Assembly (NCBI GenBank): GCA_030407005.1
Contig: JAUDYN010000006.1
Location: forward strand, 2,852,001-2,916,000
Direction of reading: 5' to 3'
Origin: Desarmillaria ectypa
Taxonomy: Eukaryota; Basidiomycota; Agaricomycetes; Agaricales; Physalacriaceae
Length of the DNA stretch: 64,000 nt
Shown: in pieces, positions 8,042 to 63,233 of the stretch
Layout: each line of letters begins with the position of its first letter
How positions within the stretch are numbered: position 1 is the first letter of the stretch
Notes under the pieces: model-generated
The model's database searches: none
The model's input: only the letters and a program-made list of their open reading frames with translations
What the model was told of the DNA's origin: nothing
Position numbers and translations under genes: made by a program

Positions 8042-8300
8042 ATGTCTGCCCCAGAAACCGCTACCAAATTCTCTTCGCCATCGTTCGCCTCTGTCGGTGG
8101 ACAACAAGTCGCTGGCCGATCCTCCAGGCAGGCTGCTGCACCCCCCAAAGAGGCCCTGAAGCTCCGTTTGGACTTGAATCTCGAGGTCGAGATTGCCATC
8201 CAGGCCAAGGTCAACGGTGACATCACCTTGTCGCTCCTGTGAGTATATGACAATGCATCCCCCGGTGAATCCACTGACTTTTCTGGTGTCTAGCTCATAA
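8042..8300 (+). CDS. small conserved peptide gene, family copy 1
   Basis: Exon 1 is 8042-8238, a 55 bp GT-AG intron is 8239-8293 and exon 2 is 8294-8300, giving 67 residues ending LLS. The N-terminus MSAPETATKFSSPSFASVGG is followed by the family core: KLRLDLNLEVEIAIQAK, then VNGD, then ITLSLL. The core alternates hydrophobic and polar residues, which predicts a long amphipathic beta strand, a tight NGD turn and a short return strand. There is no signal peptide or membrane segment, so it is probably cytoplasmic. If the intron is kept, the TGA inside GTGAGT stops translation right after LL. A TATA box is at 7996-8002. Function unknown; this copy differs from most in ending with Ser instead of Glu. 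Confidence 0.85.
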
Positions 8301-9235
8301 ATGCTACACATGAATGCAGTTGGTCGGCTGGTCGCGCGTTCCCATTCTAGGTAGGTTCTCGAATATTTGTTTGTTGCATTGGGTGCTAATGGTTCTGCCG
8401 CTAGGATATTTAATGCCTGGTGGTGGGAATATTGGTTAGGCTGGGGACTTCATATGTGAAAGGAACTGTACCATTGTTACGCGTAGCCTTGAATCCATTC
8501 TCGTTTGAAGTATACATTTTTCTGAAAGTAAGAGAGATTCCGGGTTAAGCCAAATATGTATCAGGTAAATGCTCTTGTGGTCGAATATCTTGACTGGTCA
8601 TAAGCTCGATCATTACGGTGTAGCTACCGTAGATGCAATCCAATGTCGAGCTGTTGGTGTTGAGCATGGAGGTTAGCGGAAGAGCGACTGAGCTTCAATT
8701 GACCTCAACGACGACAACTACCACGACTATGACCACGAACCGTCTGCGACGAACGAGCCACCGAGGACCAGCTCCGGGAGATATATATCTCCCAGGAGTG
8801 ACGAAAACAAAATGGTTCGTGGTGTCACACGAGGTCTTCAAGTCGATCTACCAAACGTCTATATATTGTTCGTGCTGTTATATATACTATACGTCTCCCA
8901 TGATACCTCCCTACTTTTGGACAACCTATTTCTCGGATGTGGACATTTTATTGCTAATTTAATGGACTTCTACATAGATTCAATGAATCCAAATAAAAAA
9001 ACACCTCAAACTCATCATTCCAGGAAATGATGCAGACGGAATCTTCAGTGCCTGTTGACGTAGGTCTCATCACCACATCTCAAACTATTCAAGGTTATTT
9101 GTGGTTTTATTATCGTTGTACAACGTTCTTAACATCATCTGGAATATTTATAATTGATGAGGCTTGCATACTCGGTGAGAGGCAGCCTTGGAGGGAGTGG
9201 AGTATACATGGACGGAACACCATCTTGACGAGGAA
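8301..9235. other. no gene recognised
   Basis: This holds the 3' flank of the small-peptide gene and AT-rich intergenic DNA. The conserved downstream box seen after other copies is not obvious here. Confidence 0.4.
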
Positions 9236-11163
9236 TTAGAATACTTCGCGTCTTTTTACACCGACACGGCACCCAGACGGTTTCCTCAAAAGACCTTCTT
9301 TCACTTCGAGCTATATACCAGGTCAGCAAGGCGCAAAAGAGAAAGTATCAGCACATACGACTTCATCAGGACTCTCCAACACAAAATGGAAGCGCTTCAA
9401 AATCGACGCGATAATAATTTGCAGCTCGAGCATTGCTAGATTACGCCCCACGCACGCTCTGTGATGTTATGAGTACAAGGATGCTACAATCGGCGTCACG
9501 TACCGAGGGCCAACAGAGAACGGAGTAAATGCCTTCGACACAGCCAAGCTATCACATTCAAACCATCTCTCCGGCCTGTACTCCTTCACATCGGTCCCCC
9601 ATACTGTAGGGTCCCGATGGATAGTGTAGGTAGGAGCACTAACAACTGTGCCTCCAGGGAAGTATTTTCCGGAAACCATCATACCACCCTCGGGTACTAC
9701 ACGGGGAAGCCCCATACCCACTGTGCAGTGCAGTCGCAGCCCTTCGTTGATACACGCCTGCAAATAGGTGAGTCTCTTGACTCGTGTAGCTGTAGCAACA
9801 TCAGAGTCAAGGTGCTCGTCAAGCTCCTTGTGAAGTTTGTCTTGTATGCCCGGCGCGCGTGCCAGGTAGTAGATGATGGCGCAGGTAGAGCTGAGCAAAA
9901 TGTTTAGTTCATCGTTGCGCCAACGAAATGGATAGACTTACATAGAGGTCATATCTGATCCTGTAATGAGAAACGAAAATGCTTCTGTACTGAGCTCTTC
10001 TCGACCTATTGGATTACCCTTGGATAAAGCAGGTTAAAATAACTGCCGAGTCGTCGGCAAAACCATTGCTTACTTGGTCATCCTTCCCAGCTTGCAGCTT
10101 GCTCAACAGATCATTCCTATCTGTAGGTACCTCCAGCCTCTTCGAAACAGCCATGATTGCCATTCCGAATATGGCGCCAAAATCCTCTTTGCCTTGCCTA
10201 AAGAACGGGGTCCGCTCGAGCAGCAGCCTCCACCACTCAGGAACAACTCCTATCATCGCCGTAGTATAGTCCGCTGGTCCACTTAAAGTCTTAATAGCTG
10301 GGATTTCCTTCGTGGCATACCTCGCTCCTGCCTGGCCGTAAGAACCCATCATGGCATGTGGATCTTCAGGCACTTGAGCTATATCCTTGGCTGCCTTTAC
10401 CATTCCGAATGGCGCTCCAAACGCCAAATCACCGATGATATCAAATGCAAGATAGTTCACCCCTGCAGAACATGGTATGTAATGGGGAGGCTCAAACTGA
10501 CAGAGGAAGCCCACCTACACGGGAAGCAGTCCAGCCAAAGCCGCCCGTCATGTCCTGTCCAACCTTCACCTTCCTGGCCTGACAGGCCCTCTGAAGCCCC
10601 ATCATATAGCCTGTCCCACTGTCTTAGCAACTGACCGACGAAATGGCGTACATGAGGTTCAAACTCCAGCACACTCTTCTGCGAAAAAGTACGTGACACC
10701 ATCTTTCGTTTCCGAGTATGTATCTGGCGATCCCGGGTGGTAAACATGCCATGCGAAGAAGAAACATTGAAAGCATCATAGAACGAGGATTTGAGCGCTC
10801 CATTCCCATGCCCGTAGATAATGGTCTGTGCGTCCGGAAGGGCCACCGATACGTGGTTAGGCGCTATGCGAACAAAGGGACCTTGGGGGATATTGATGAG
10901 CGATTTTAATAACGAACATGGTCGATACCGGACTGACCATATTTCATATGCAAGTCATGAATGACTTCTGACCGATGTGCCTTATAAGACACGTATCCCA
11001 GCCATGCATAGGAAAACTTGGCAATGAGAGGCCCAGGTTATGAGCGGAGGCCATGAGAGTCGACAAGCTAGGGTACTAGATGAACCAGAGCGACTAGTAC
11101 AAGAACAGTGGCGACGATCGTCGGAAGGTCTGTATGAAATGATTCGAGGCTAAGATAGAACAT
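9236..11163 (-). pseudogene. cytochrome P450 with two N-terminal in-frame stops
   Basis: Seven exons join in frame (11163-10938, 10881-10519, 10462-10074, 10018-9942, 9890-9504, 9458-9359, 9310-9236), giving 538 codons, the normal length of a microsomal P450. Visible motifs: hydrophobic anchor (IVATVLVLVALVHLV), PGPL hinge, I-helix TGSDMTS (345-351), ExxR (E401-R404), PERW, and the haem loop FSVGPRACVG with the ligand Cys483. The fold resembles fungal benzoate-hydroxylase/pisatin-demethylase-like P450s (family-level inference). Codons 32 (TAG, 11068-11070) and 42 (TAA, 11038-11040) are stops, both where Tyr would fit. Either the gene is dead, or a 60 bp in-frame GT-AG segment covering both is removed. 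It lies head to head with the Zn2Cys6 regulator at 12104, 941 bp between start codons, suggesting a former regulator-enzyme pair. Confidence 0.85.
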
Positions 11164-12103
11164 TGCACCGCGTATGAAGCTGTTCATGGCAAAGACCTGT
11201 TATACCATCGCAGTGGGATAGATCCTAGAACGCCATATGGCCAATCATGAGTGGAAAATACCGACCAAGTCACGTTGACAATAAACTTACCTTCCTCCTT
11301 GGAAACTTTGTTGACGAATCGAGTGCGGAAATACGGCTATATGTGTAAGAGTGATGACAAACCGCTAGAATTCATTCGAACGGCAGGTTTGACGTAAGTC
11401 GCATCGCGCGAGGGATTTTCTCAAATGGTAATATCATTATACCGTGCTGGACTTTCAGTTTCAGAAATCTCGGAGCAATTCTGTTAGAAAGGGATAGCTC
11501 GAAGAGGTAAGCAACTGCCTCACCGAACCGTTTAATGACAGCAAGGAGCCGCGGCAGAGCAAGGCAGGCAGACCCTGCAAATAACGATGTACGTGTCGAG
11601 AACAAATATAGACAACTGAACTCAAGAAAAGCTATTAGAAAAGAGTAAGGCACTCTTCCAGAAGATCCTTTTGTATGTCAGTGGTAGTTTCGTGGTGTCC
11701 AATCCTGCATTCTCCGAAGAGATGGGGAGGTGTCCGAAGGAAGAGAGAATTAAATCATTCCATAGTGTGGATGCTCTGGTCTAAGAGCAAATGACAGGAG
11801 TACGGGAGAAGCTCGGTCTTCGCTGAGGATCGTGTAGTAGGCTAGTAGCTGTCTAGAAACTTGGAAAAGACTAAAAGAAAACGATGAGACAGTCCTTGTG
11901 ATGCAGAATGAGGAAGATATTTGCACTAGTGCGACACAATAGAGCACTTACCAGGCATCTACTTATTTCTAGGGCCTTGGCTTGCAAGGGAGGGACAGCA
12001 ACTGAGTCAGAGCAGTGTGGTTGTGCCGACCCACGTTTCTCCGGAGCGGAACCGACTACCGGAGGATGTCCCCCGGTAGCAATGTCTGCCTTTCTCAATC
12101 ATC
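11164..12103. promoter_or_regulatory. divergent intergenic region between P450 and Zn2Cys6 regulator
   Basis: This 940 bp lies between the P450 start (minus) and the regulator start (plus) and must carry both promoters. I see no clear gene. A minus-strand open frame at 11372-11653 has no recognisable content. Confidence 0.4.
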
Positions 12104-15100
12104 ATGGAGGACGAGTTGTCTTTCAGAAAAAGGAGAATGACTCGTGCGTGCGATAGGTGCCGTGTAAGGAAAAGTAAGCTTTGTCTATGCCTTGTTCTCG
12201 TGGCTGTTTCTGACGTAGGCTTCCTTGCTAGTAAGATGTATAACCCGTCCGCTCCATCAGATCTGCTAATACAACTGCTCAGTATCGAAAATGTATAGGT
12301 GATCACGCTGCTGAACAGGGAAATCGCTGCTCAAGTTGCGTTGTGACCGATGCAGAGTGCACCTATGCGACTCCGGCGAAAGCCAGTTTTTCCCTTTATT
12401 GTGAAATACTAAGACTTATCACAACTCTCGTACAGAAACGGGGTCAAAAGTCCAAGTCAGTGCGTCTATCTCCATGCTCAAATAGGCACTGATTTCGGTA
12501 GTCCCAAGCAAAACGTTGATCCGGCATCCTCTAATTTCCGGAGACGCAAAAACAATGCCAGGTGTGACAATTGTAAACCCGGTGACTTCATGATAATGCA
12601 ACTGATATCTGACCAGCTACGTGGCGGGATTAGTACAACGCGCAGAGCAATTGGAACGTACGATCAAAGAGGTTCGGAAATAGTGCATCTACCCCGTAAC
12701 TTTTCTCAGTAATTACAGCTCAATCCCGCTGCCGTTCTACCTGAAAGAACAGTACACGGGATGCCAAGACACGTGCCGGGGATACCCTTGCAAGGAGATT
12801 CATCCCGATCTGCAAGTCATATGCCGTCTGAGACAGTGGTTGAGCTTGATGACGACTTTACGAGCCTGGACCTTGGGGAAAAAATGAAGAATCTGTCATT
12901 AAAACACGACAAGGCCTTCAGCGAGAGGTGTTTCGGATCATCAAGTAGTTTGGCGCTTTTCATGAATGCCCTTTCCACCAAAAAGAAGTTGACGGGTCGC
13001 TTGAATACGATGCAACTACAAGACTACTCCAATTTATATCCTGTGTGTCCTGCTTTAAGCCTCAGCTAGCTTCTCTTTCGCTAAACCAGTTTTGATGACC
13101 AGTGGGAGCAGGCTACTGCCGACGCCGAGAAATCTTGTTACGTTTTTCCTGACAATGATCTTATTACGAACCTGGTCGCCATATATTTTGAAACGGTCAA
13201 TCCAATTCTTCCAATCCTGCATCGACCTACGTTCACGAAAGACGTCGCCAATGGGTTACATCTACGTGATGAAAATTTCGGTGCTATATTACTTCTTATT
13301 TTAGCTGTTGCGTCGCGTTATTCCGACGACCCAAGGGTATTAGCCGATCCCAGCTCGAGGCTTTCCGCAGGATGGGGTTTCCTCGTGCAGGCCCCCATCT
13401 TCAAAAAAACAGTATTGGCTCCTCCTAGCTTATATGAAATTCAGCAAGCTGCCGTAAGTCTATCTCCTACCACTTTTCAATCAAGCTCAGCATGGCTTCG
13501 GAAGCTCGGGGTGATATGTTCCATGGGAACTTCCGTTTCTCAGTTTAGCTGGACCGTTATTGGGCTCGGACTACGCTCTGCAGTAGAAATTGGGTTACAT
13601 AGGCAGAAGCCTAAAGGGCATAAACTGACAGTCGACGATGAACTCAAGAAGCGATCCTTTTGGTACTTTTCCTATTCTTCGTATCGCCGAGAGATGCCGA
13701 TGGACCTATATGTAGGGCGCTTGTTACATTTGACAGACTACTAAGTCTATACCTGGGCCGGCCCATCACGATACAAGAGGAAGAGTTCGTCGTTTTGACA
13801 CATTCTATTAATTCTGCCGAACATTCATATTTTTGCTACAGCTTCGACTTGGAGCTGCCGGTTGAATGCGACGACGAATATTGGGATATTAGTCCTGATG
13901 GAGAAGTGCATTTTTGCCAACCGGCGGACAAACCTTCTAAAATCAGCTATTTCAACGCGCAAATACGGTTAAGCGGGATAATGTCGGCTGTCATGAGGAA
14001 TCTGTATTCCATCAAGAAAGGTCGAGACATGTTAGGCCTTAGCGGAAAGGATGAGCAGCACATCGTTTCTGACATAGATTCTTCAATGAATGCTTGGATG
14101 AACGCCATCCCCGAACATTGTATGCCTTCCATTATGTCAGTCCAACGTTCCGCTTACCATGTTTCAGTACGTTGGGACCCCGACCGCGATAATACGCTGT
14201 TCTTGTATCAATCTGCGGTTCTATATAACACCTACTATATGCTCCAGATCTATATACATCGACCCTTTCTACGCGCGGAATCTTCCTTTTCCACTCCATC
14301 TCTCATTATATCCACGGTTGCAGCCAGATCTTGTGCTCGAATCCTTCAGGTTCATTTGACAAGAATAAAGTTTACAACGCCCCACCTTCTGGTAAGCTGA
14401 ACATCTCTACCTCCTCATCCATTAATCGGAAGTCGTTTTAGATGGGAGCCTTTATGTCTGGTGCTGTACTGGCCATAAACATCTGGAGTCACAAACGGGT
14501 GGGCCATCCCCCAAATGCATATGACCTGACTGGCTTTGAACAGTGCCTAGCCACCTTCATACATGCTGCCGACACGTGCGTTCGAGTATATTTCGTACCA
14601 TGAGTAACCTGATATTGGTCCATTGATAGGTGGAATGTTGCTGGTTGTTCACTGTGGGTAGCAGTTCCAAAGTATTACATCTGCATGACTACAAATGGAC
14701 GTCTAGGAAAATGTTCAAGGGCATGGCATCCTTTGAGACCGTTGGTGTTTTAGATGGCGCTTCTATCAATACTGAATATCCTCGGGAAAATGCCGCCCCT
14801 GTATCTGCTCCTATTTGGGATTCGTATCATACTATACCAGACGCTCCACCTGAACAAATGCAGCAATTTGGTACCGTTGGCCTTCCCTCCTTCGATGTAA
14901 ATCCTTGTTCACGAGAGCTAGCTTCTACAGATACAGAGTACTTGAACAGTTATCTAGAGACCCACACCGGTGCAGGCCAGCCCTTAGACTGGACGGACGT
15001 GGAGTCGTGGAGTTGGCCCCAGTCGACATTCTGCGATATTGCGGAATCAGAGTTGTCTGGGGGTCTAGGCACTATCGATATGTGGACTTTTGCACCTCCA

Positions 15101-15546: not shown

Positions 15547-17705
15547 GTGCATAGAGGAACCATTAAGCAGAGGACCGAAATGATGGGTAGAGCACAAATT
15601 GAAAGGTGCCTAGGCACTAAGCATTATGACGGCAAGAGTTCGGCGAAGGCAGTCGGAGATTCAATATTGCAGATTAATTGGGTCAGTCGGCAAATCCCGA
15701 AGGTTCATTACGCTTGCTTCCTTTCAGCCATGGAAACCTTTTACTGTGGCATCTATGATCCCGCCACATCTAAACAGTATACGCCTATCGTTTCTTTCAA
15801 GTTATTGATGAGACCAAGGGTCGCTTGTGTCGAGGATGCCATAGAAACCATCTTCGAGCGAGTCAAAGGCATGCCAAAGTTCAAACGGCTTGGCGAATGG
15901 TCGCTGGATAGGATCCAACTCTGGAAGGTATCTGCCTGTTCTGAAGCTGCCACAATCCTAGATCAACTTTCTATCACTAGTTGAATGAACCAGTGATCGC
16001 CCTCGACTGGGAGGACAACCCTAGTCTACTCGCTGGCCCTATCGAGGGCTGTGCCACCCGCTTACGAATGACCTGCGACCTTTCTATGCCTATCAGAAAC
16101 GAAGTCGGTAAGGCTTTACTCGACTTCGTCGTCGTTCTTGAGCCGCCAGAGTCCGAAGAGATGCTGGATCAAATCCAAGATCTGATACCTCGTAGTGCGT
16201 GTCGGTGTTGATCTGACTGCAGGCTGTTGTTTTACTTCTAAGTTAGACTTTCAAGAGACGCTTTCAGAGGTTCTCAGAGGACCAACGCCTTCCCAGCAGG
16301 CCAAGTCGACGGAGTACAAAGAGCACCAAAGGAAGCAAAGACCAGTATTCGATGGCCGTTACGACTTCGACAAACCTCAGAACACCGAGGGGTTACCTAT
16401 TGCTTTATATCATCCTGTCTTTGCCCAATTCAGGACGCAGTTCGCCAATGTGGATCTCCCAGTACCTCAAAAAGTCTTACGCTCCACGGTGAAGGTTGTT
16501 GACGTGTCCTCGGCTATTTATTCAGGCGCCAGGAAGGGAGAAAAGCGACGAAGAGAAAATCTTGTTCCTCACCTCTCGGCTGCCATTGGTCATTCCATCG
16601 AGCATGTCTCCAATCTTGATGGTACCGAGCCTGATGGTACCGTTCTACATCGACCCGCGCACGTAGTGGAAGGAGAGAGCGTGGCGCTTTCGCTGAGCGA
16701 GGTCAAGGATGAGATAGGAACGGGAGGGTCCGACCCCTCCATTCAGGGTGGTTTGTCTGTCCGTCACTTTTGGGCGCAAACAAATGTAAATCCGAATGTT
16801 GTCCGTTACGTCCAAGCTGACCGTTCTTTTACTAGCGCACTAATTACAGAAATGCGACCTGCTGTCCTACTCTTATCTTCGCAGCTGCAGGCCCTTGGAT
16901 GGCTGTCTTCGGCGTCGTCTTTACCGACAAATTGATCATCGAACCATTGACGGATCTCATTAGGGTTGTCAATCTTCGTCTGAACAGCCCACATTACCGA
17001 CGGATAGCCCGGCTCTTTTACGTCTTCGGTAACTGTCTTACTTCGTTGGCAAACTACTGGGATACACTGGTCATCCCTTCTGTACCTGTAACCTCGATGG
17101 AACACCCTCGCTACTTCCCTCATGTCAACAGCTATATCTCGAACGACTCGACTACCTCTTTTCGATATCTTCGCCCGATGGATCCACAAGATACTCTCTG
17201 TGTTACTTTTCTCGCAGAAACACCTTCCCGCACTCGTATTGTTGTCAAGTTCGTGGAACAATACGGGGGTGGAGCACATCAACTTCTCGCTGATGCCGAT
17301 TTGGCCCCCAAGCTCCTCTATCATGGTCCTCTTGATTCTTCTACCGACGCGCCTTCATATGATAGTCTTCGCATGGTGGTGATGGAAGAGGTGGAGGGTA
17401 CCAATGCGTTTGCTCGATACCAAGGTCGAAAGGCACCGGAATCGTTCGTCACCTCGGTACGCGAGGCTGTACGCAAACTGCATGACCACGGGTTTGTATT
17501 CGGTGACTTACGGCGCCAGAATATCATGGTCACACGAGATGATAAAGTCAAACTGATTGATTTCGATTGGGCTGGGAAGGATGGTGAGGTAGAGTACCCG
17601 ATGCGGCTGTCTGAAAAAATACAATGGGCACCGGGGGTAAAGGCGATGGAGAAAGTTTGCAAGACTCACGATAACTTTATGATTGACCAACTGTACTATG
17701 GGTAG
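15547..17705 (+). CDS. Crinkler-like protein with atypical kinase tail, probably frame-broken
   Basis: Exon 1 (15547-15927) ends in a CRN-type header, VACVEDAIETIFERVKGMPK followed by SLDRIQLWK. A phase-0 intron 15928-15980 joins it to LNEPVIALDWEDNPSLL and a CRN-like stretch to about 16191. The central part (16223 to ~16850) has RYDFDKP, GHSIEHVSNLDGT and GSGGSDPS-like GTGGSDPS motifs. The C-terminal part (to 17705) has AGPWMAVFGVVFTDKLI and a kinase-like core: VKFVEQYGGGAHQLL, VREAVRKLHDHGFVFGDL, RRQNIMV and DFDW in place of DFG. CRN proteins with such tails occur widely in agarics and may belong to self/non-self or nucleic-acid processes (family knowledge). The frame changes between ITEMR (~16856) and LIFAAAGPW (~16880) without a clear intron, and the 31 bp intron near 16192 is unusually short, so the gene may be inactive. 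Confidence 0.6.
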
Positions 17706-20347: not shown

Positions 20348-20606
20348 ATGTCTGCCCCAGAAACTGCTACCAAGACTGCATCCACCGGAACTTCCTCTGT
20401 CCTCGGAGGACAAATCGTCGGTCGCTCCAACCGACAGGCCGTCGCACCCCCCAAGGAGGCCTTGAAGCTCCGTCTTGACCTTAATCTCGAGGTCGAGATC
20501 GCCATCCAGGCCAAGGTCAACGGCGACATCACCTTGTCGCTCCTGTGAGTAGATCCCGACGCGTTTAACCGGTGGATTGTGCTGATTTTCGACGCGTAGT
20601 GAGTAA
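20348..20606 (+). CDS. small conserved peptide gene, family copy 2
   Basis: Exon 1 20348-20544, intron 20545-20599 (55 bp), exon 2 20600-20606, 67 residues ending LLE. The N-terminus MSAPETATKTASTGTSSVLG and the piece GGQIVGRSNRQAVAPPKEA link it to copies 3, 8, 11 and 12. The core KLRLDLNLEVEIAIQAK plus VNGDITLSLL is unchanged, although several third codon positions differ from copy 1. TATAAAA lies at 20302-20308, 40 bp before the ATG. GTGAGT gives an in-frame TGA if the intron is kept. It lies between the Crinkler-like gene and the second regulator. Function unknown. Confidence 0.85.
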
Positions 20607-25671: not shown

Positions 25672-25923
25672 TCACTCACTACGCCCGTCAAAAATAAGTC
25701 CACTTCGTCAAATAAATGCAGGATCTACTCACAGGAGCGACAAAGTGATGTCGCCATTGACCTTGGCCTGAATGGCAATCTCGACCTCAAGGTTAAGGTC
25801 GAGACGGAGCTTCAGAGCAGCGGGGGGTGCAGCCTGACGCTCAGAGCGACCGACGATTTGTCCGCCGAGGACAGAGGAGGATTGGGTAGGTGCGAATTTG
25901 GTAGCGGTTTCTGGGGCAGACAT
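25672..25923 (-). CDS. small conserved peptide gene, family copy 3
   Basis: Minus strand: exon 1 25923-25733, intron 25732-25679 (54 bp), exon 2 25678-25672, 65 residues ending LLE with a TGA stop. The N-terminus is MSAPETATKFAPTQSSSVLG, then GGQIVGRSERQAAPPAA, close to copies 8, 11 and 12. A TATA box (TTTTATA on the plus strand, 25955-25961) lies about 32 bp upstream of the ATG. It is transcribed away from copy 4 at 26916, with about 1 kb between start codons. Core unchanged; function unknown. Confidence 0.85.
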
Positions 25924-25961: not shown

Positions 25962-26780
25962 CGCGACCGGCGATTTTTTGGGGAGGAATTTTCTGCGATC
26001 CCAGAACCCTCGTAGAATGTAAGGTGTTCCAGAGTCAAATTGGAAGTCATGTGCTGCAACGCCTGTATTCAAGTTGTCGTAAGCTTGTAGCAATAGACTC
26101 TTACCGACCCAGCGCATCCACGAGCATGATGATTATCATACTTGTCGCGGATACATTCTTCTTTTCCATGACAGAGTTACCTGGGTCGGATACAGAGAGG
26201 TAAAAGAAGAGCATTAGAGCGAGAAACGGTGGTAGTGGCGGCTGGCGAAACTCGGGCTAATTTGTTGTAAGAGAACGATGAGCTTCGAACAACCCGAGGC
26301 AGGCCGACTCACGAAACTGTCATCCCGTCGAAGACTCTTTTCTCGTGATAGCTGATTTTGAGAGCAGCAATTGCTACATTTTTGATGGAAAAGATAACGA
26401 GATGGGGTGCGTCGAGACCGAGGGTTGCGGTGATATTTTCTAGAAATCTACTCTGGAGAACGAAGACATGCCTCGGAGACCGTCGCGCGGAATTGATGGC
26501 GTAAGAGTAGCAGAGATGGTTGCAAATCAAGCCGGACCTTCCCGTGATGTAAAGCTTTGCAGTGGAATTTTGGACCCACAAGCACCTATACATATGGCTA
26601 CTCGTCCCGGCCATGCCATCAACAAATGCTATATTACACCTCCACCCTGTGTGTTCTACTTCACTGGTTTATGTTCCAAGAGCCCCAAGTCGCAGGCAGG
26701 GATATCTTCTGCAGCGTGTTCTTTATGAAATAAGAACCGTTACGTAGTAAGTACCTTCTTGCCGCTTCGAGACGAAAAAA
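25962..26780. other. no gene recognised between divergent small-peptide copies 3 and 4
   Basis: About 0.8 kb between two divergent family members. The short open frames on both strands have no recognisable content. Confidence 0.4.
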
Positions 26781-26915: not shown

Positions 26916-27128
26916 ATGTCTGCCCCAGAAACCTCCGTCGCCACCCGCTCCAACCAGGGAACCGTCGCTCCCAAGGAAGCTTTGAAGCTCCGTCTTGACC
27001 TCAACCTCGAGGTGGAGATCGCCATCCAGGCCAAGGTCAATGGCGATATCACCCTTTCCCTCCTGTGAGTCGACAATTACTGCCGTTTTGGGCGCTCCAT
27101 GCTGACTGGTCGTTTTTACAGCGAGTAA
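26916..27128 (+). CDS. small conserved peptide gene, family copy 4 (shortest N-terminus)
   Basis: Exon 1 26916-27064, intron 27065-27121 (57 bp), exon 2 27122-27128, only 51 residues ending LLE. The N-terminus is cut down to MSAPETSVATRSNQGTVAPK before the core, so the variable region is about 21 residues. Copy 10 (51845, minus) has almost the same N-terminus, so these two form a subgroup. The TATA-like ATAAAA is at 26872-26877. A conserved downstream box lies at 27311-27334. Core codons differ from other copies mainly at third positions. Function unknown. Confidence 0.85.
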
Positions 27129-32572: not shown

Positions 32573-32833
32573 CTACTCACTAGAGGCGTGCCGAAAGTCA
32601 GCCATGTCCATGGACGACGCATCAAGAAATACTCACAGGAGTGACAGGGTGATATCACCGTTGACCTTTGCCTGGATGGCAATCTCAACCTCGAGGTTGA
32701 GGTCCAAGCGAAGCTTCAAGGCCTCCTTGGCGGGTGCAGCAGCCTGCCTGTTGGAGCGAGCAGCAACCTGCTGTCCACCAACAGAGGTGAATGAGGGAGA
32801 AGAGAACTTGGTAGCGGTTTCTGGGGCAGACAT
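32573..32833 (-). CDS. small conserved peptide gene, family copy 5
   Basis: Minus strand: exon 1 32833-32637, intron 32636-32580 (57 bp), exon 2 32579-32573, 67 residues ending LLE with a TAG stop. The N-terminus MSAPETATKFSSPSFTSVGG is nearly the same as copy 1, and the piece QQVAARSNRQAAAPAKEA is a close variant, so copies 1 and 5 are sister duplicates 24 kb apart on opposite strands. A TATA box (TTTTATA on plus, 32872-32878) lies about 39 bp upstream of the ATG. Function unknown. Confidence 0.85.
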
Positions 32834-33511: not shown

Positions 33512-33840
33512 GACGCGAGAACTCTGAACCACATTGATGCTTTCAAAGCCAAGCAGAACTCTTTCTTTCGAACTTCAATATCGCTGGCGCCGTTTCAGTT
33601 GTCTAATGACACTTCGGCCTAGGCGCATCCAAAGATCTGGACGACTTTATTGATGGAATGGGAGTTGTTGGCGCACGGGAGTCGCGTCCCCAGTCCGTGT
33701 CGCGGTTGTTTTCCCTACGGGCCATCTACTTTCTCTCTCTGATCCTTTCCTGTGTGAACCAATAACGGACGGACTCACTAACAACGTATTATAGAGTCTC
33801 CCAGTCGTTCTCCCTTTCCCTCCGACGCTAAAGGGCACCC

Positions 33841-33905
33841 AAGGAGGAGATGAAGTTCAGACTTGACCACGGCCGAGATCGCCATCAAGGCGAACGTCAC
33901 ATCCT
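33841..33905 (+). pseudogene. small conserved peptide gene, relic a
   Basis: AAGGAGGAGATGAAGTTCAG, then ACTTGACC, then CGAGATCGCCATCAAGGCGA and ACGTCAC align with the core coding part of the family from KEALKLRLDL to the QAKVN region. About ten bases are missing between the LDL and EIAI codons, which shifts the frame. The segment ends before the NGD turn, and no start codon or terminal intron remains. It is a dead copy, between live copies 5 and 6. Confidence 0.7.
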
Positions 33906-34747: not shown

Positions 34748-35012
34748 TCACTCACTGGGATCAGAATTTAGTGACGGCCCCGCGACAGAACAACGAAGAA
34801 TCCACTTACAGGAGCGAGAGGGTGATGTCACCGTTGACCTTGGCCTGGATGGCGATGTCGACCTCCAGGTTAAGATCCAACCTGAGCTTCAGTGCCTCCT
34901 TGGGGGCGACAGCTCCAGCACCGACACGAGCGGTCAGCTGGCCGTTTTTGGCTTCGGCATCAGCGGTAGCGCCGAGAACAGAGAGATGAGCTTGAGCAGT
35001 TGGTTGAGACAT
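34748..35012 (-). CDS. small conserved peptide gene, family copy 6 (divergent N-terminus)
   Basis: Minus strand: exon 1 35012-34810, intron 34809-34755 (55 bp, donor GTAAGT), exon 2 34754-34748, 69 residues ending LLE. The N-terminus MSQPTAQAHLSVLGATADAE differs from the MSAPETATK type and has no GRS motif, but KEALKLRLDLNLEV and the rest of the core are kept, with Asp for Glu in LEVDIAIQAK. A TATA-like TTTTTATA (plus) lies at 35047-35054. If unspliced, the in-frame stop is TAA. Function unknown. Confidence 0.82.
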
Positions 35013-37304: not shown

Positions 37305-37577
37305 TTACTCCCTGAACGCGAAGTCAGCTCTGATTCAGATGCAAAATGAACAAAGAAATAGAGCTTACAAGAGGGAAAGGGTGATGTCGCCGTTGACTTT
37401 GGCCTGGATGGCAATCTCGACCTCGAGGTTGAGGTCCAACCTGAGCTTGAGAGCCTCCTTTTGCTTGCCGACACCACCGCGCCCAAGGCCTTGGTTGGTG
37501 ACTTGGCCAGCCTGGTTTTCACCACCGAAGGCGGTTTTCTCGGAGGTAGCGTATTGAGTAGCGGGTTGAGAAGACAT
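37305..37577 (-). CDS. small conserved peptide gene, family copy 7
   Basis: Minus strand: exon 1 37577-37369, intron 37368-37312 (57 bp, donor GTAAGC), exon 2 37311-37305, 71 residues ending LLE. The N-terminus MSSQPATQYATSEKTAFGGE is unlike the others, and the linker is Gln/Gly-rich (NQAGQVTNQGLGRGGVGKQK). An upstream in-frame ATG at 37617-37619 would add 14 residues, but the ATG at 37577 fits the TATA box (TTTTATA on plus, 37627-37633) better. The last Leu codon is TT/G rather than CT/N, showing the intron position is kept although the bases around it changed. A GAGGCACCCGG box is at 37714-37724. Confidence 0.83.
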
Positions 37578-41065: not shown

Positions 41066-41083
41066 TAAAGAAGTGGAGGGGGA

Positions 41084-41179
41084 GCGCTCAAGCTAAAGTT
41101 GGACCTTAACCTCGAGGTTGGCATAACTATCAAGGCCGAGGTTAATGGCGACATCGTGTTTCCGTTTCTGTGCGTGTAA
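41084..41179 (+). pseudogene. small conserved peptide gene, relic b
   Basis: ALKLKLDLNLEVGITIKAE and then VNGDIVFPFL clearly derive from the family core, with changes at six or so positions. The frame is closed upstream by TAA at 41066-41068, with no ATG before the core, so the N-terminal part is gone. A donor-like GTGCGT still follows the second-last Leu codon and an acceptor CCAG is near 41219, so the intron remains recognisable. Changed core residues mark it as decaying. Confidence 0.7.
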
Positions 41180-41902
41180 TTGAGGCTTCGCCTGCACTCG
41201 AGGCTGATTCATTTGCCAGATAGTAACCTTTTCGGTATCGTCGCGATTGGTGTTCCCTATGAGGTTGATCTGTTTTTGCATGCTGTGAACTAAATGACAA
41301 GGTTGACCACCAGCCTTGATTCTAGCAAGTCGGAATGGATGGTTGTCAGGAAACTCGAAGGCTAAAAATACCGAGATTTGCATCATTCTTTTGCGTGTTA
41401 GCGGCGCTCCCTATACACTGGATGAAAAACAATGTATTTTTACCTATGAATACATAGAAAATATCCAAAGTTTTTCCACCGTTTTTTATACTAAAAAAGC
41501 ACTAAAAGTATTTTGAATTCCTCACTGTTTACTACAAAGCCTGTCAAATACAGTGAAAAGTTATGAATACTTATACCGCTTTTTCTACACAAAAATACTG
41601 AGGAAAAAACTTTGAATATTTTCTGTGTATTTAGGGGTAAAAATACCTAAATTTTAGTGCAGTGATATCCACCTTCAACTTGGTTTGCCGTCGTTATCGA
41701 TGCGTGCTGCACAAAATGTCGTTCTTGATGGATCAACAGAGCGCAAGGATGGCTGGCTGTATTTAAAAAAGTGACAAGTCCTACATAATAAATAGCGAGA
41801 CTTCGAATCTGTAGTAAGTTCCGGGCCCGGCTTACCTTTCCGCTCTTCCTCGAGCCTCGAAATCCCAATTGTGAACATTCGACGCCAGAAAAATAAACTC
41901 GT
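41180..41902. other. AT-rich intergenic DNA, no gene recognised
   Basis: The stretch 41430-41660 is unusually AT-rich, with repeated AAAATA/AAAGTATTTTGAAT-type words. No feature can be named. Confidence 0.4.
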
Positions 41903-44474: not shown

Positions 44475-44723
44475 ATGTCTGCTCCAGAAACCGCTACCAA
44501 ATTCGCACCTACCCAATCCTCCTCCGTCCTCGGCGGGCAGATCGTCGGTCGCTCTGAGCCCCGGCCTGCACCCCCCGCAGCTTTGAAGCTCCGTCTTGAC
44601 CTTAACCTCGAGGTTGAGATTGCCATCCAGGCCAAGGTCAACGGCGACATCACCCTTTCTCTTCTGTGAGTACCGTACGTAGCCTTGCGCGTCCTCGAAC
44701 TGACTATTACTTTCAGTCAGTAA
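44475..44723 (+). CDS. small conserved peptide gene, family copy 8
   Basis: Exon 1 44475-44665, intron 44666-44716 (51 bp, the shortest in the family), exon 2 44717-44723, 65 residues. Exon 2 reads TCAGTAA, so the last residue is Gln, not Glu. The N-terminus MSAPETATKFAPTQSSSVLG, then GGQIVGRSEPRPAPPAA, is almost the same as copy 12 at 62983, a recent duplicate. TATAAAA is at 44432-44438, 37 bp before the ATG. A downstream box lies at 44926-44960. Function unknown. Confidence 0.85.
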
Positions 44724-45882: not shown

Positions 45883-46297
45883 TCATTCACTAGCAAAGCG
45901 GAATCAACGGGAAAGTAACGGATATAAATATGACGACTCACAGGAGCGAAAGGGTGATATCCCCGTGAACCTTGGCCTGAATGGCGATCTCAACCTCCAA
46001 ATTCAGATCCAACCTAAGCTTACGGCCTTCCTCATTGCTCCTCCTTGCAACTGGAGCAGGAGTGTCGTCAATAGCCCCAGTTCCGCTGATAGAGTCCCAT
46101 TCCTGCATTCCATTCAAGCTGCTGTTGGGCACGAAATCCCATTCCTTTCGTCGACCGCCGTAACCGGTTCCGCTAACGGATTCCCAGGCGGAAGCGGTGC
46201 TTAAGCTGCTAGGTAAACCGTCGATGTGGGAGCGTGTAGTGGTAGGAGATTCGCTGTAGTATGGGAGCCCGCTGACTGTATTAGAGTTGTGCGACAT
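45883..46297 (-). CDS. small conserved peptide gene, family copy 9 (long N-terminus)
   Basis: Minus strand: exon 1 46297-45942, intron 45941-45890 (52 bp), exon 2 45889-45883 (TGAATGA), 120 residues ending LLE. The N-terminal part is about 92 residues, far longer than in the other copies, starting MSHNSNTVSGLPYYSESPTT. It holds an imperfect internal repeat (AWESVSGTG, EWDFVPNSS, EWDSISGTG) before RKLRLDLNLEVEIAIQAK. In the core only one residue differs (VHGD for VNGD). A TATA box (TTTTATA on plus) is at 46331-46337. This copy shows that the C-terminal core and its last-codon intron act as a module joined to unrelated N-termini. Confidence 0.83.
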
Positions 46298-51624: not shown

Positions 51625-51845
51625 TTACTCGCTATAGAAGAGAACAGTCAGCATGGAGGCGCGCTCAGGACGGCATAGTCATCAACTCACAGAAGGGAGA
51701 GGGTGATGTCACCGTTGACCTTGGCCTGGATGGCGATCTCCACCTCGAGGTTGAGGTCAAGACGGAGCTTCAAAGCTTCCTTGGGTGCGACGGTGCCCTT
51801 GTTGGGGCGAGTGGCAACGGAGGTAGAGGTTTCTGGGGCAGACAT
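51625..51845 (-). CDS. small conserved peptide gene, family copy 10
   Basis: Minus strand: exon 1 51845-51691, intron 51690-51632 (59 bp), exon 2 51631-51625, 53 residues ending LLE. The N-terminus MSAPETSTSVATRPNKGTVA is almost that of copy 4, 25 kb away on the other strand. The coding frame is only 52 codons without splicing, short enough for many gene finders to miss. A TATA-like CTCTTATATG (plus) is at 51881-51890, and the promoter box is at 51963-51973. Core unchanged. Function unknown. Confidence 0.85.
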
Positions 51846-51962: not shown

Positions 51963-51973
51963 TCGGGTGCCTT
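51963..51973 (-). promoter_or_regulatory. GAGGCACCCGA-like box upstream of small-peptide copy 10
   Basis: On the minus strand AAGGCACCCGA lies about 118 bp above the ATG at 51845, preceded by AAGTTGCTTAGAC as in copies 1 and 4, which have AAGTTG at the same place. Confidence 0.5.
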
Positions 51974-53870: not shown

Positions 53871-53946
53871 ACAAGGGTAAACCCACATGATAGATCAAAA
53901 CAGTTTGCTACAGCGGCGAGGCTTAGGTTAATGCATTCAATGTCAG

Positions 53947-55126
53947 CTCTCACTGAAACAGCGCTACAAGATGAGAGACATTCCTCCCATCTAGTTACAA
54001 GACGGAAAGAGTAAAAGAGAAGAGAGTATATGCAAATTGCATTGGAGGTATACAATACTATACATACAGTGTTACAAATGTCCATTGTCACCCCGCCTGT
54101 TCGAAGAATAAAGCTTCGTCGAACTTAGTAGTTGTAGTGGGCGTTCCAGCAAGAAGTGTCGTAGTACTTGTGGCCATCTTTGCCATCCTTGCCGTCTTTC
54201 TTTCCGTCCTTTCCATCTTTCTTTCCGTCCTTGTCATCTTTCTTTCCGTCCTTGTCATCTTTCTTTCCATCCTTTCCGTACTTTCCGTCCTTGTCACCGT
54301 TGTATTTTCCATCCTTATCATCATCACAGTCATCCTCCCAGGTCAGGATATCAATGATCTCCTCGAACAGCTCGCAGATGAACTTGTCCTCGGATTCTTC
54401 TTTCGAATAAGCTACAAAAACATCAGATTAAAGAGTCGATTGAGCGTGAGTAGATATCAGACGGACCCTGGCAAGAGTTGCATTTATCGTCCTTCTCGCA
54501 AAGGTTCTTGCAGTCTGAGGAGTAAACGTCAGTGGAATGATCGTGGATGAAAATGAAGAGACGAGCTTACCGATCTCATAGGAGTCCTTCTTGACATCCT
54601 TGTGATCGTAGGGGGTGTACTTGCCTTTGTTCCACCCTTTGAAGTCCTTCTTGTGCTCAAACACAGGCTCCCAGGTGCAATCCTTGCGCCCCTCGTCCTT
54701 GTTGCCATAATGGTAGTCCTTGCTGCCGCCATCATTGTGGCCGTCCTTGCCCTTATAATCGACACTGCCATACGAGCCGTCCCTAGCTTGAACGGAAGTC
54801 GAGAGGACGGGGACCGCGAGAGCAGCGAGAGGGACGAGAGCGCCAACTGAGAAACGCATGGTGGAGAATGTGCTGAAGTAAGTAGATGAGGATGGTGAGT
54901 CTGTCTGTCTGGAGAATGTGGGCGATTCCATAGCTCTTTTATATCTCTTTGGATATCCTTGTCTCGACCAACTGTGAACTGGAAGAACGTCATATTGAAA
55001 CAGCACTGAGCACAGGATGAGGGGGTTTTGTGGCCAAGCGTAATCTACCCCAAGACCTGCCAAGCTGCAAGAGAACCAAGTTCGAGTGGTAGTAACCAAA
55101 TACGGTGCAGGCGGGAACGTCGGTCT
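53947..55126 (-). repeat. inverted repeat, left arm
   Basis: 1,180 bp that matches 55875-57054 in reverse complement, ending at equal distances (53947+57054 = 55126+55875). Every stretch I compared, including introns and flanks, is the same, with no indels. Just outside the outer end the two sides share a few more bases with three mismatches, then diverge. It contains one complete secreted-protein gene with promoter. Confidence 0.85.
54125..54859 (-). CDS. secreted Lys/Asp/Gly-repeat protein, left copy
   Basis: Minus strand exons 54859-54571, 54514-54467 and 54411-54125, 207 residues. A signal peptide (MRFSVGALVPLAALAVPVLS, cleavage after about residue 23-25) is followed by a charged region (SVDYKGKDGHNDGGSKDYHY), a short Cys-rich part (DCKNLCEKDDKCNSCQ), an acidic helix (FICELFEEIIDILTWEDDCD) and a low-complexity tail of KDGK/KDDK units ending CWNAHYNY. 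It is probably exported to the cell wall or medium. Codons in the tail form a 21 bp minisatellite. It is identical in translation to the gene at 56142, and the two are transcribed away from each other. No known family was recognised. Confidence 0.8.
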
Positions 55127-55874
55127 AAGACGTAGCGGAAAAAAAGGGGAGACCTGCCATACTCTTGCTGGCGCTGGGGGGTACAAGACATTTCAGGCGT
55201 GGCAAGAACAATCAGTGCAAGGAGATTGTGGGAATTGAATATAAATAATTTGAAAGCAAGAATTCGAAGTTAGTTGTACAAAGATGACTGATAAGTTCGG
55301 ATCCAAGTTGAGAGTCGAGAGAAACCGGCAACCCACAGCCGATTACAGCCGGAAAGTCCGCACAAAGTTGCCGTGACGGCTGGATCACTTTATCGTTTGC
55401 TTTTTGTCTAAAGTCATGCCCGCCCTAGCCAGAGCCTTTCCTCTTCCCCTGCTCGGAGGATGAAATTGCCACTATTATATAACGACTTCATATATATCCG
55501 CCAATTCATTGATGGTGGCCAATATGACCTTTTCATTGGAGGACTGAGGGGCTATATCAGTGTTATTACCTTCTGAAATAACGAGGGACTGACGGCTTCA
55601 TCTAGCATGTTTCGCTTATTTGGTGTCGATGTAACTACTGAGGCAAGCCACAGCGGGCTAGGATCACTTGTTTCTATTGGGAAAGATCTACATTTTTCGC
55701 TGAACCATGGACTTGGCTTAATCGCCTTGAAAATCAAATCTACGTGACTACTTTCGAAGATGAATCCACTCGGAATCCTTGGCATATCTGAAATATCTTT
55801 CCCTTTGAGTAGCAACTCTCTCGCTTCGAATGAGACTAAGGCTGGCCACTCTCAAAAGTTCCCCGTTCCCTCTG
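55127..55874. other. spacer of the inverted repeat, no gene recognised
   Basis: 748 bp of single-copy DNA between the arms. It holds no transposase-like frame, tRNA or terminal repeat that would explain the duplication. Confidence 0.6.
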
Positions 55875-57054
55875 AGACCGACGTTCCCGCCTGCACCGTA
55901 TTTGGTTACTACCACTCGAACTTGGTTCTCTTGCAGCTTGGCAGGTCTTGGGGTAGATTACGCTTGGCCACAAAACCCCCTCATCCTGTGCTCAGTGCTG
56001 TTTCAATATGACGTTCTTCCAGTTCACAGTTGGTCGAGACAAGGATATCCAAAGAGATATAAAAGAGCTATGGAATCGCCCACATTCTCCAGACAGACAG
56101 ACTCACCATCCTCATCTACTTACTTCAGCACATTCTCCACCATGCGTTTCTCAGTTGGCGCTCTCGTCCCTCTCGCTGCTCTCGCGGTCCCCGTCCTCTC
56201 GACTTCCGTTCAAGCTAGGGACGGCTCGTATGGCAGTGTCGATTATAAGGGCAAGGACGGCCACAATGATGGCGGCAGCAAGGACTACCATTATGGCAAC
56301 AAGGACGAGGGGCGCAAGGATTGCACCTGGGAGCCTGTGTTTGAGCACAAGAAGGACTTCAAAGGGTGGAACAAAGGCAAGTACACCCCCTACGATCACA
56401 AGGATGTCAAGAAGGACTCCTATGAGATCGGTAAGCTCGTCTCTTCATTTTCATCCACGATCATTCCACTGACGTTTACTCCTCAGACTGCAAGAACCTT
56501 TGCGAGAAGGACGATAAATGCAACTCTTGCCAGGGTCCGTCTGATATCTACTCACGCTCAATCGACTCTTTAATCTGATGTTTTTGTAGCTTATTCGAAA
56601 GAAGAATCCGAGGACAAGTTCATCTGCGAGCTGTTCGAGGAGATCATTGATATCCTGACCTGGGAGGATGACTGTGATGATGATAAGGATGGAAAATACA
56701 ACGGTGACAAGGACGGAAAGTACGGAAAGGATGGAAAGAAAGATGACAAGGACGGAAAGAAAGATGACAAGGACGGAAAGAAAGATGGAAAGGACGGAAA
56801 GAAAGACGGCAAGGATGGCAAAGATGGCCACAAGTACTACGACACTTCTTGCTGGAACGCCCACTACAACTACTAAGTTCGACGAAGCTTTATTCTTCGA
56901 ACAGGCGGGGTGACAATGGACATTTGTAACACTGTATGTATAGTATTGTATACCTCCAATGCAATTTGCATATACTCTCTTCTCTTTTACTCTTTCCGTC
57001 TTGTAACTAGATGGGAGGAATGTCTCTCATCTTGTAGCGCTGTTTCAGTGAGAG
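55875..57054 (+). repeat. inverted repeat, right arm
   Basis: Reverse-complement partner of 53947-55126. It spans from about 267 bp upstream of the gene's ATG to about 178 bp after its stop, so the unit copied is one gene with its flanks. Beyond 57054 the sequence still resembles the left flank for a few bases (three differences) before diverging. Confidence 0.85.
56142..56876 (+). CDS. secreted Lys/Asp/Gly-repeat protein, right copy
   Basis: Exons 56142-56430, 56487-56534 and 56590-56876 join in frame for 207 residues. Introns are 56 and 55 bp (donors GTAAGC and GTCCGT). I chose ATG 56142 because a hydrophobic signal peptide starts directly there; an in-frame ATG at 56070 would add a 24-residue polar leader. 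TATAAAA is at 56058-56064. Domain order is as in the left copy: signal peptide, K/D/G-rich, four-Cys cluster, acidic helix, KDGK repeats, CWNAHYNY. The regular charge pattern suggests a structural or ion-binding role outside the cell, but this is only inference. Confidence 0.8.
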
Positions 57055-57109
57055 TTGACGTTGAATACTTGTGGTGTAAGGCGAACACAATCTGACTTCG
57101 ATGCGTGGA

Positions 57110-62180: not shown

Positions 62181-62440
62181 TTACTCGCTGTGAAATCGAC
62201 GAATCAGCCCGCGTGTACACGTCAGACGAAAAAACCTTGAACTTACAGGAGCGACAAGGTGATGTCACCGTTAACTTTGGCCTGGATGGCGATATCAACC
62301 TCAAGGTTAAGATCAAGACGGAGCTTCAAAGCTGCGGGAGGTGCAACAGCCTGGCGCTCAGAGCGACCAACAATCTGTCCACCGAGGACGGAAGAGGATT
62401 GAGTAGGTGCGAATTTGGTAGCAGTTTCTGGGGCAGACAT
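62181..62440 (-). CDS. small conserved peptide gene, family copy 11
   Basis: Minus strand: exon 1 62440-62247, intron 62246-62188 (59 bp, donor GTAAGT), exon 2 62187-62181, 66 residues ending LLE. The N-terminus MSAPETATKFAPTQSSSVLG, then GGQIVGRSERQAVAPPAA, resembles copies 3, 8 and 12. The core has Asp in LEVDIAIQAK, as in copy 6. A TATA box (TTTTATA on plus) is at 62477-62483. It is divergent from copy 12, with 542 bp between start codons, so the two may share regulatory DNA. Function unknown. Confidence 0.85.
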
Positions 62441-62483: not shown

Positions 62484-62869
62484 ACTGAAGGGAGCTTTGG
62501 GGATTTTCTCGACTATGAAATATCGATGGTGACACGGCGTGTGTATCACCGGTTCACTATTGATATTTCATAATAGACATTCTCCTGAAGCTAACTTGGT
62601 CTAAGCAACAATGCACTTTTTCAGCATCGGCTTGTCCCCGAAAACACGCGTCAGAAGATTACGGGAAGGGCAGTTCGAGTGGGGTTGGATACTCATTGTA
62701 CTTACCTGGTGCCCAACCGTTTGTCGCTCCACCCCTTTGGCTCCGAATTACCATGTCCTGACTATAACTTAAATCGGTGATAATAATCCCCTCGAAAATT
62801 GTACATGTTTAATAAACCTTTATGTACCTGTCTGAAACGTTTTCTTCCTTCTAATTCTACGCCTTCGAC
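62484..62869. promoter_or_regulatory. shared intergenic region of divergent small-peptide copies 11 and 12
   Basis: No gene. Must contain the upstream regulatory DNA of both copies. One GAGGCACCCGA box lies at its right end, facing copy 12. Confidence 0.4.
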
Positions 62870-62880
62870 GAGGCACCCGA
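62870..62880 (+). promoter_or_regulatory. GAGGCACCCGA box upstream of small-peptide copy 12
   Basis: Exact GAGGCACCCGA preceded by TTCGAC, 103 bp before the ATG at 62983 and about 59 bp above the TATA box. Confidence 0.55.
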
Positions 62881-62982
62881 GTTGATAAATGCACCATGGC
62901 GTAATCCATCCTAATCCAGGGAAGGGGGTCGATATTCGTATAAAAGGAGAACTTGGAGGGTTAACTATTCTTCAGCATCACA

Positions 62983-63233
62983 ATGTCTGCCCCAGAAACC
63001 GCTACCAAATTCGCACCTACCCAGTCCTCCTCCGTCCTCGGCGGACAAATCGTCGGTCGCTCTGAGCCCCGGCCCGCACCTCCCGCGGCTGTGAAGCTCC
63101 GTCTTGACCTGAACCTCGAGGTTGAGATCGCCATCCAGGCCAAGGTTAACGGCGACATCACCTTGTCGCTCCTGTGAGTGGATTTCCGGTGTTGACGCGT
63201 CGTCGGGCTGACTGTTTGACTCGCAGTGAGTAA
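62983..63233 (+). CDS. small conserved peptide gene, family copy 12
   Basis: Exon 1 62983-63173, intron 63174-63226 (53 bp), exon 2 63227-63233, 65 residues ending LLE. It differs from copy 8 (44475) by one residue in exon 1 (AAVKLRL for AALKLRL) plus the final Glu for Gln, so it is the youngest pair in the window. TATAAAA is at 62939-62945, 38 bp before the ATG. A downstream box lies at 63370-63405. Function unknown. Confidence 0.85.

Follow-up and report, generated by a model that had tools for sequence, protein, structure and literature searches.

Judged by its sequence, a scattered set of tiny genes in Desarmillaria ectypa, a relative of the honey mushroom, appears to consist of real, selected genes belonging to an undescribed small-protein family of Agaricomycetes, whose members share an almost invariant 27-residue C-terminal core (the tail) behind heads that differ from copy to copy. 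In the 64-kb window, by which is meant the whole stretch of DNA analysed, all of the 12 intact copies of the original prediction were recovered at the starts and on the strands it gave, each with the core described, and both of its relics were located (Table 1). The family pattern KLR(L/I)(D/E)L(N/H)L...GD(I/V)T(L/I)SLL closes a small protein in 12/12 of the window copies. Genome-wide there are 53 core-bearing loci, 40 of them inside 258 kb and singles on other contigs, and the 258-kb cluster is the product of local amplification.

Table 1. Coordinates in the window of the gene copies, relics and promoter elements.
Feature	Span (strand)	Exon 1	Core	Intron	Exon 2 coding	Predicted end	Remarks
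Copy 1	8042..8300 (+)	8042-8238	8159-8239	8239-8293	8294-8300	LLS, stop	
Copy 2	20348..20606 (+)	20348-20544	20465-20545	20545-20599	to 20606	LLE, stop	
Copy 3	25672..25923 (-)	25923-25733	25812-25732	25732-25679	to 25672	LLE, stop	
Copy 4	26916..27128 (+)	26916-27064	26985-27065	27065-27121	to 27128	LLE, stop	
Copy 5	32573..32833 (-)	32833-32637	32716-32636	32636-32580	to 32573	LLE, stop	
Copy 6	34748..35012 (-)	35012-34810	34889-34809	34809-34755	to 34748	LLE, stop	
Copy 7	37305..37577 (-)	37577-37369	37448-37368	37368-37312	to 37305	LLE, stop	
Copy 8	44475..44723 (+)	44475-44665	44586-44666	44666-44716	to 44723	LLQ, stop	
Copy 9	45883..46297 (-)	46297-45942	46021-45941	45941-45890	to 45883	LLE, stop	long head, kept across genera
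Copy 10	51625..51845 (-)	51845-51691	51770-51690	51690-51632	to 51625	LLE, stop	
Copy 11	62181..62440 (-)	62440-62247	62326-62246	62246-62188	to 62181	LLE, stop	
Copy 12	62983..63233 (+)	62983-63173	63094-63174	63174-63226	to 63233	LLE, stop	
Relic 1	41079..41195 (+)						core decayed to KLKLDLNLEVGITIKAEVNGDIVFPFL
Relic 2	33835..33899 (+)						shorter; blastn E 1e-5
Element TTACGTA	7897..7903 (+), copy 1						also 20250-20256+, 26740-26746+, 32947-32953-, 37780-37786-, 46382-46388-, 52016-52022-
Element GAGGCACCC	7964..7972 (+), copy 1						also 26797-26805+, 37716-37724-, 62870-62878+
One-mismatch form AAGGCACCC	51965-51973 (-)						of the GAGGCACCC element
TATA box of copy 1	7996..8001 (+)						

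The claim that the cores are nearly identical was borne out, the exceptions being Glu/Asp differences in two copies (starting at 35012- and 62440-) and Asn/His in one (46297-). At the DNA level the 12 cores, of 27 codons each, vary at 21 third, seven first and no second codon positions. Selection on the protein had also been proposed, and the dN/dS check agrees with it, giving a core mean of 0.049 among the 12 copies and 0.060 among 34, with higher values in the heads than in the core in 6/6 head-length groups compared; an exception is a core dN/dS of 0.47 in one group of three recent duplicates with few changes. Between the 12 copies the nucleotides agree at 86% in the core, at 44% across the intron stretch and at 37% from −300 to −100, the random level being 33%. 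The core is under strong purifying selection, and the intron and flanks have lost nearly all similarity above background. The heads of the window copies place 23 to 92 residues before the core, those of the 34 copies are rich in Ala/Ser/Pro/Thr/Gly, and certain heads are kept from genus to genus.

Where the protein ends needed revision. The core had been taken as the very end of the protein, at ITLSLL; its sequence was right, and the C-terminus is most likely ...ITLSLLE, reached through a short intron. The in-frame stop after ITLSLL sits within a GTRAGY splice donor, and a phase-2 intron of 49-60 nt, predicted from the DNA, follows the tail directly, such that splicing adds one codon, which is Glu in 10 of the 12 window copies and Gln and Ser in one each. 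This arrangement of donor and single added residue occurs in 34/34 intact copies across 256 kb (shuffles mean 4.3, max 10), and at 14/17 other loci, the shuffle figures being those for the 34 copies. The end coordinate originally reported for the finding, 63233, coincides with the spliced stop of copy 12. Use of an acceptor 4 nt downstream for coding exon 2 (LLKC...) was rejected, the frame closing early in several copies, and a second intron is likely in the 3'-UTR. A special role for the stop inside the donor was likewise rejected, because a stop, TAA or TGA, arises from any GTRAGT donor in that phase; the GTACGT donors of two loci, which make no stop at that position, count against it too. 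A consensus donor in the tail frame contains a stop and is an annotation hazard: of 215 database proteins, 49 stop with the core itself, 47 run one residue past it and 116 four or more, and the at least four extra residues of these 116 are probably misread downstream sequence.

Upstream, a TATA box and two promoter elements of fixed orientation are common to many copies. A TATA-like box lies 38-56 nt before the start in 12/12 copies, one of them reading AATAAAAG. A wider regulon was considered and rejected, GAGGCACCC with TATAAA giving three matches outside the family and three in the reversed control. The box alone (CGAGGCACCCG) has 24 matches in the genome, against 7 in the reversed control; 11 of them fall in the cluster and 13 elsewhere, and so the box is not private genome-wide. 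Shared promoter elements together with conserved heads make the family readily testable in expression data.

The same tail closes small "hypothetical proteins" of Mycena, Mucidula, Cylindrobasidium, Coprinopsis, Coprinellus, Favolaschia and Serendipita, those of Mycena, Coprinopsis, Cylindrobasidium, Favolaschia and Serendipita ending in KLRLDLNLDVDVQIKARVHGDVTLSLL or a near form, and it is this presence in other mushroom-forming fungi that makes the set look like a real undescribed family. The relatives resemble the D. ectypa proteins in the homologous tail and in a low-complexity head, mostly starting MS, and most rows inspected stop at the core or one residue later; they differ in a tail that is typically KLRLDLNLDVDVQIKARVHGDVTLSLL and in longer, Arg/Ser/Gln-rich heads. 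Across the 215 database proteins the tail is nearly invariant, for example at L2 (214), N7 (213) and S25 (213 of 215), and K1 likewise, and it is older than the cluster and extends beyond both cluster and clade. The statement that no named family was known for this core stands, since Pfam, NCBIfam, the PDB and literature motif strings all gave no match. Pfam returned 0 matches for five window proteins and only sub-cut-off ones for 10 relatives (best E 5.5e-4, to DUF2076, in one relative), NCBIfam gave nothing above curated cut-off for the 10 relatives, a PDB search yielded no matching family, and a literature search by motif strings, six A. ostoyae locus tags and topics found no description of the family among the matches listed. 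Strict conservation of the tail contrasts with this absence of any Pfam, NCBIfam or PDB match, and a near-fixed 27 residues, kept in distant mushrooms and, within a single genome, by 40 or so paralogs or more that have otherwise diverged, speaks of a task tolerating little change.

Quite what this task is can be put forward tentatively: the tail may be an amphipathic beta-strand serving as a common interface, self-assembly included, that presents interchangeable disordered heads. Its residues 1-18 alternate hydrophobic with polar or charged; an NGD/HGD turn and then a second, short strand would come after them, the whole being a module for assembly or docking. Tails of different copies might pair with one another, in homo- or hetero-assembly, or add a strand to one conserved partner, and many paralogs would thereby bring interchangeable heads to one place. 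In support, the 170-degree moment of three tail versions was equalled by 27, 17 and 28 of 5000 shuffles, which preserve composition only, and an AlphaFold2 monomer gave the tail a pLDDT of about 78-84 and the head mostly <50. Counting against the beta interface are the pTM of 0.21 of that model, DSSP assigning it no strand, and a Foldseek comparison of it with the PDB giving no match. One shared interface would fit the constancy of the tail in paralogs diverged almost everywhere else, and self-assembly is slightly preferred to a non-self partner. The bolder proposal is quite doubtful: a beta-strand polymerisation tag of a new kind, conserved in mushroom-forming fungi, through which dozens of armillarioid paralogs, each with its own disordered head, would build combinatorial hetero-filaments or condensates together.

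Docking of the tail on one conserved non-self protein, by strand addition or extended binding and without self-assembly, so that members share or compete for it, is somewhat unlikely. It predicts equal conservation, as the dN/dS values and the 215 proteins would have it, which counts against self-assembly as the sole reading, and a lone strand without a fold of its own would suit the AlphaFold2 monomer; against such a putative partner, no gene near the copies was seen to accompany them as a pair. Action like that of the plant EAR repression motif, recruiting a fungal corepressor with the Arg-rich heads of older relatives being nuclear, is improbable: by inspection overlapping LxLxL lies within LRLDLNL (corepressor binding being putative) and there are relatives with Arg-rich heads, but EAR spans 5-6 residues and 27 are conserved here, strand alternation alone produces LxLxL, and the five window proteins scanned contain no DNA-binding domain. 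Very improbable is a tail that, as an amyloid signalling motif of putative amyloid fold, relays NLR activation to other proteins in the HET-s style. The length of 27 and the GD pair near the C-terminus resemble basidiomycete motifs described in PMC9815663, but 0/53 genome loci lie beside any of six NACHT loci, in the loci read a short frame finishes with the core, and no tail copy at the N-terminus of an NLR was found in the D. ectypa genome; a HeLo search had no match either, but its control was silent too and so it says little.

Secreted effectors or pheromone-like peptides are scarcely credible here, even though small size, multiple clustered copies and a constant C-terminus recall the DELD proteins that PMC3192844 describes in Piriformospora indica. 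The original suggestion of a peptide system, taken as a secreted or signalling peptide, finds no support: a signal-like hydrophobic stretch is absent from the 34 heads (top mean hydropathy 1.0 in 12-residue windows near the N-terminus), as is cysteine, close relatives occur in Mycena and Coprinopsis, and the STE3 receptor genes lie elsewhere, on C1, C2, C9 and at C29:2149 kb, the last about 600 kb from the cluster. Mushroom mating pheromones carry a C-terminal CaaX box, and none of the 12 window copies has such an end. A mating-type B locus was rejected, there being no STE3 in the cluster, and so was a mating-type A locus, for which MIP, of the M3 peptidase family, is a flanking marker; that family maps to C23 and C31. 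Cargo or remnants of a mobile element could account for copies scattered on both strands and for singles on other contigs, but in their −300 to −100 flanks the 12 copies are hardly more alike than random sequence, strong selection acts on the core, and this reading is already disfavoured, its chance being very slight.

Among known systems, the DELD family of Piriformospora (Serendipita) indica is alike in being a multi-copy set of small basidiomycete proteins, constant in a C-terminal motif and more variable in the body, and unlike, as PMC3192844 describes it, in its seven-residue RSIDELD motif, in a His/Ala-rich body predicted helical, and in being secreted and linked to transposable elements. 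In the D. ectypa family the tail is 27 residues long and the head is not signal-like; neither an RSIDELD end nor a signal-like stretch is present, the 12 window copies ending LLE, LLQ or LLS and the 34 heads being as described. Fungal amyloid motifs (HRAM, sigma, PP and the basidiomycete NLR05/08/22/29/44; PMC9815663) share a similar length, a GD pair near the end and the C-terminal position of the effector side, and differ in that here no NLR-side copy and no adjoining NACHT locus was seen (53 loci, six NACHT). The plant EAR motif, for which PMC9956375 gives the two forms LxLxL and DLNx(x)P, has LxLxL in common with the tail, EAR occurring in plant repressors and the tail in small fungal proteins.

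The tail genes of D. ectypa form a real and undescribed family, with an unusually conserved tail (the 27-residue C-terminal core ending in ITLSLL), a shared predicted architecture and a lineage-specific expansion. All 12 copies of the original prediction lie at the starts and on the strands proposed for them with frames open through to the core, both relics are present (41079-41195 and 33835-33899), and the database D. ectypa proteins P0077 and P0110 have heads (the variable N-terminal parts) identical to those of copies 8042+ and 51845- respectively. Three genome searches with different queries gave an identical set of at least 53 family loci, a lower bound, the 55 rows of one search being the 53 loci, an extra fragment of one of them and a weak unrelated match. 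Within 256 kb of contig C29, window included, 36 core loci were read, 34 intact and two with decayed cores, and for the remaining 17 loci short pieces were read. Upstream regions are distinct in 26 of the 34 intact copies, and some copies of the C29 cluster are recent segmental duplicates. Family copies travel with a larger unrelated gene of ~330-440 residues in a segment that was recently triplicated (C29:2916-2934 kb, L021-L022).

That selection acts on the protein, and that the pattern is not only recent copying, had been proposed with dN/dS as the check, and both points hold. Among the 12 window cores third codon positions vary at 21 of 27, first positions at 7 and second at none, and the Nei-Gojobori method with mean proportions gives a mean dN/dS of 0.049, or 0.060 for the 34 intact cores, far under 1. 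Compared pairwise, the 12 copies have 86% DNA identity across the core, 44% across the intron stretch, 43% beyond it on the 3' side, 44% over the 100 nt just ahead of the start and 37% from -300 to -100, compared with 33% for random pieces; recent copying alone is therefore insufficient, since the core is conserved while intron and flanks diverged and dN/dS is low. Head dN/dS exceeds that of the core in all six groups of equal head length, of 3 to 7 copies each (0.09-0.60 versus 0.01-0.47), the core ratio of 0.47 arising from few changes in one group of three recent duplicates.

The core is present in 12/12 copies as claimed, but ITLSLL is probably not the true end, given a donor and an acceptor in 34/34 intact copies: an intron probably follows, and then one more codon. 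Directly behind the last core codon these copies read CT/GTGAGT (19), GTAAGT (13) or GTAAGC (2), with TT instead of CT in a few, and an acceptor AG lies 49-60 nt downstream (CAG 24, TAG 10). After predicted splicing a single codon remains ahead of the stop, for Glu in 28 copies, Gln in 4, Ser in 1 and Lys in 1. When the downstream DNA is shuffled with dinucleotides preserved, acceptor, codon and stop appear in a mean of 4.3 copies (maximum 10) versus the 34 observed. A branch-like YTNAY is found in 31/34 and the stricter CTRAY in 21/34. A GT donor with an acceptor of this kind is seen, by our count, at 14 of the remaining 17 loci, the shuffle comparison being for the 34 copies; the exceptions are AT for GT, GC for GT and a missing acceptor, one each. 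The 215 database proteins stop at the core in 49 cases, one residue later in 47, two or three later in 3 and four or more residues beyond in 116, and 27 of these 116 extensions start K-C, as if splicing had used an acceptor lying 4 nt downstream. In 21 of 26 non-armillarioid-looking rows (sources jgi, ena and lgn, picked by eye among the matches listed) the protein ends exactly at the core, which is what a gene caller without splicing would yield.

A second intron, also predicted from the DNA, is likely in the 3' UTR, ~50-60 nt past the start of exon 2: 27/34 copies have a donor, a branch-like site and an acceptor there, versus 3.4 (maximum 9) in plain shuffles, an earlier stricter version giving 7/34 versus 1.7 (maximum 5). 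Predicted exon 2 is held at 51-63 nt, and so the stop falls 44-56 nt ahead of the second junction, which is about the distance for nonsense-mediated decay in animals.

Upstream, TATAAR stands 30-70 nt ahead of the start in 30/34 copies (background 1.7% per 46 nt). TTACGTA occurs 91-218 nt upstream in 17/34, in a single orientation, these being 17 of its 24 occurrences on either strand of the 256 kb, and GAGGCACCC occurs 78-147 nt upstream in 13/34, also in a single orientation; the last of its 14 occurrences in the 256 kb appears to be a site ~150 nt before the core of a relic at 2,756,172. Neither element is universal, and both are missing from most copies past 2,950 kb. Followed by TATAAA 55-85 nt on, GAGGCACCC has 15 genome matches (11 in the cluster, one at a C31 family copy, three elsewhere) and its reversed control three; the box alone, CGAGGCACCCG, is less specific, with 24 (11 in the cluster, 13 elsewhere) and seven for its reversed control.

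Twenty window frames were scanned against Pfam for neighbours, and no neighbour gene paired with the copies was found by repeat comparison. A second repeated gene family is seen at ~28.9-30.6, 48.3-49.7 and 57.2-58.0 kb, with more members at C29:2761 and 2943 kb; its frames at 28.9, 48.4 and 57.3 kb look F-box-like, we presume, and an F-box was not reported in them by Pfam. A 1,204 bp inverted repeat (53935-55138 / 55863-57066; 100% identity, 724 bp between arms, mirror-image open frames) is due either to duplication in the very recent past or to an error of assembly, and both arms hold 21-bp tandem repeats of about 5-6 copies (54177-54322, 56679-56824). STE3 pheromone-receptor genes, several clustered, lie at C29:2149 kb, C2:1394 and 1520-1537 kb, C9:5-18 kb and C1:2730 kb.

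Locations of family loci in the genome and of Pfam-matched neighbours in the window
Feature	Location	Strand	Basis
40 family loci	C29, 2,756-3,014 kb		genome searches
Four family loci	C3, 799-838 kb		genome searches
Nine single family loci	on seven contigs		genome searches
P450	9470-9898	-	Pfam, above cut-off
Fungal transcription factor	13660-14397	+	Pfam, above cut-off
Fungal transcription factor	22754-23266	+	Pfam, above cut-off
Protein kinase	16899-17702	+	Pfam, above cut-off
F-box-associated LRR	5195-6283	+	Pfam, below cut-off
PAH	49893-50378	+	Pfam, below cut-off

One protein search found 157 proteins with E up to 0.001 and another, confined to the last 40 residues, found 165 with E up to 1, the named organisms among the best 120 of each being Armillaria, Desarmillaria and Guyanagaster (the armillarioids), whose ancestor is dated in PMC5264464 at 51 Ma (95% HPD 30-73). 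An alignment including divergent D. ectypa paralogs gave 661 at E up to 10 from 3013 candidates, and among the matches listed, the best 120 of 661 (reaching E 1.5e-11), the named organisms from beyond the armillarioids are Mycena filopes, M. rebaudengoi, M. capillaripes, Cylindrobasidium torrendii, Mucidula mucida, Coprinopsis sp., Coprinellus micaceus, Favolaschia claudopus and Serendipita vermifera. These typically have a head rich in Ser/Pro/Arg/Gln and then KDTLKLRLDLNLDVDVQIKARVHGDVTLSLL; similar forms exist in D. ectypa outside the cluster, some decayed (L029-L032, L034). These searches require shared five-letter words and limit length, and so absence of the tail from other groups is not to be read from them. 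Heads are conserved as well as the tail, that of copy 46297- matching Guyanagaster P0123 at 85 of 92 residues and two Armillaria proteins at 84 and 81.

The first 18 residues of the tail alternate between hydrophobic and polar or charged; for three versions of the tail, 27, 17 and 28 shuffles in 5000 reach its moment at 170 degrees. We infer, and rank first, that it would be a common beta interface, for self or for a partner. An AlphaFold2 model from 44 sequences (pLDDT ~78-84 in the tail, mostly <50 in the head; pTM 0.21; no strand assigned by DSSP) had no Foldseek match in the PDB; a lone strand in need of a partner would give such a picture, and a docking peptide would too. Mimicry of the EAR motif, which would rest on a five-residue pattern, is doubtful, and an NLR amyloid signalling motif is very improbable: such signalling, as described in PMC9815663, predicts a copy of the motif on the NLR side, and searches of the D. 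ectypa genome did not find it. The copies are unlikely, from their sequences, to be secreted proteins.

The original view that no named family has this core stands, as none matched above cut-offs: for 5 window proteins Pfam gave nothing even with E allowed up to 10, and for 10 relatives it gave sub-cut-off matches only (best E 5.5e-4); NCBIfam, too, gave sub-cut-off matches only for 10 relatives. PDB sequences gave no match to one family protein and two engineered proteins at E 1.2 to the profile, and the tail motif strings had no match in the literature searched. In kind, the closest precedent is the DELD family, as described in PMC3192844.
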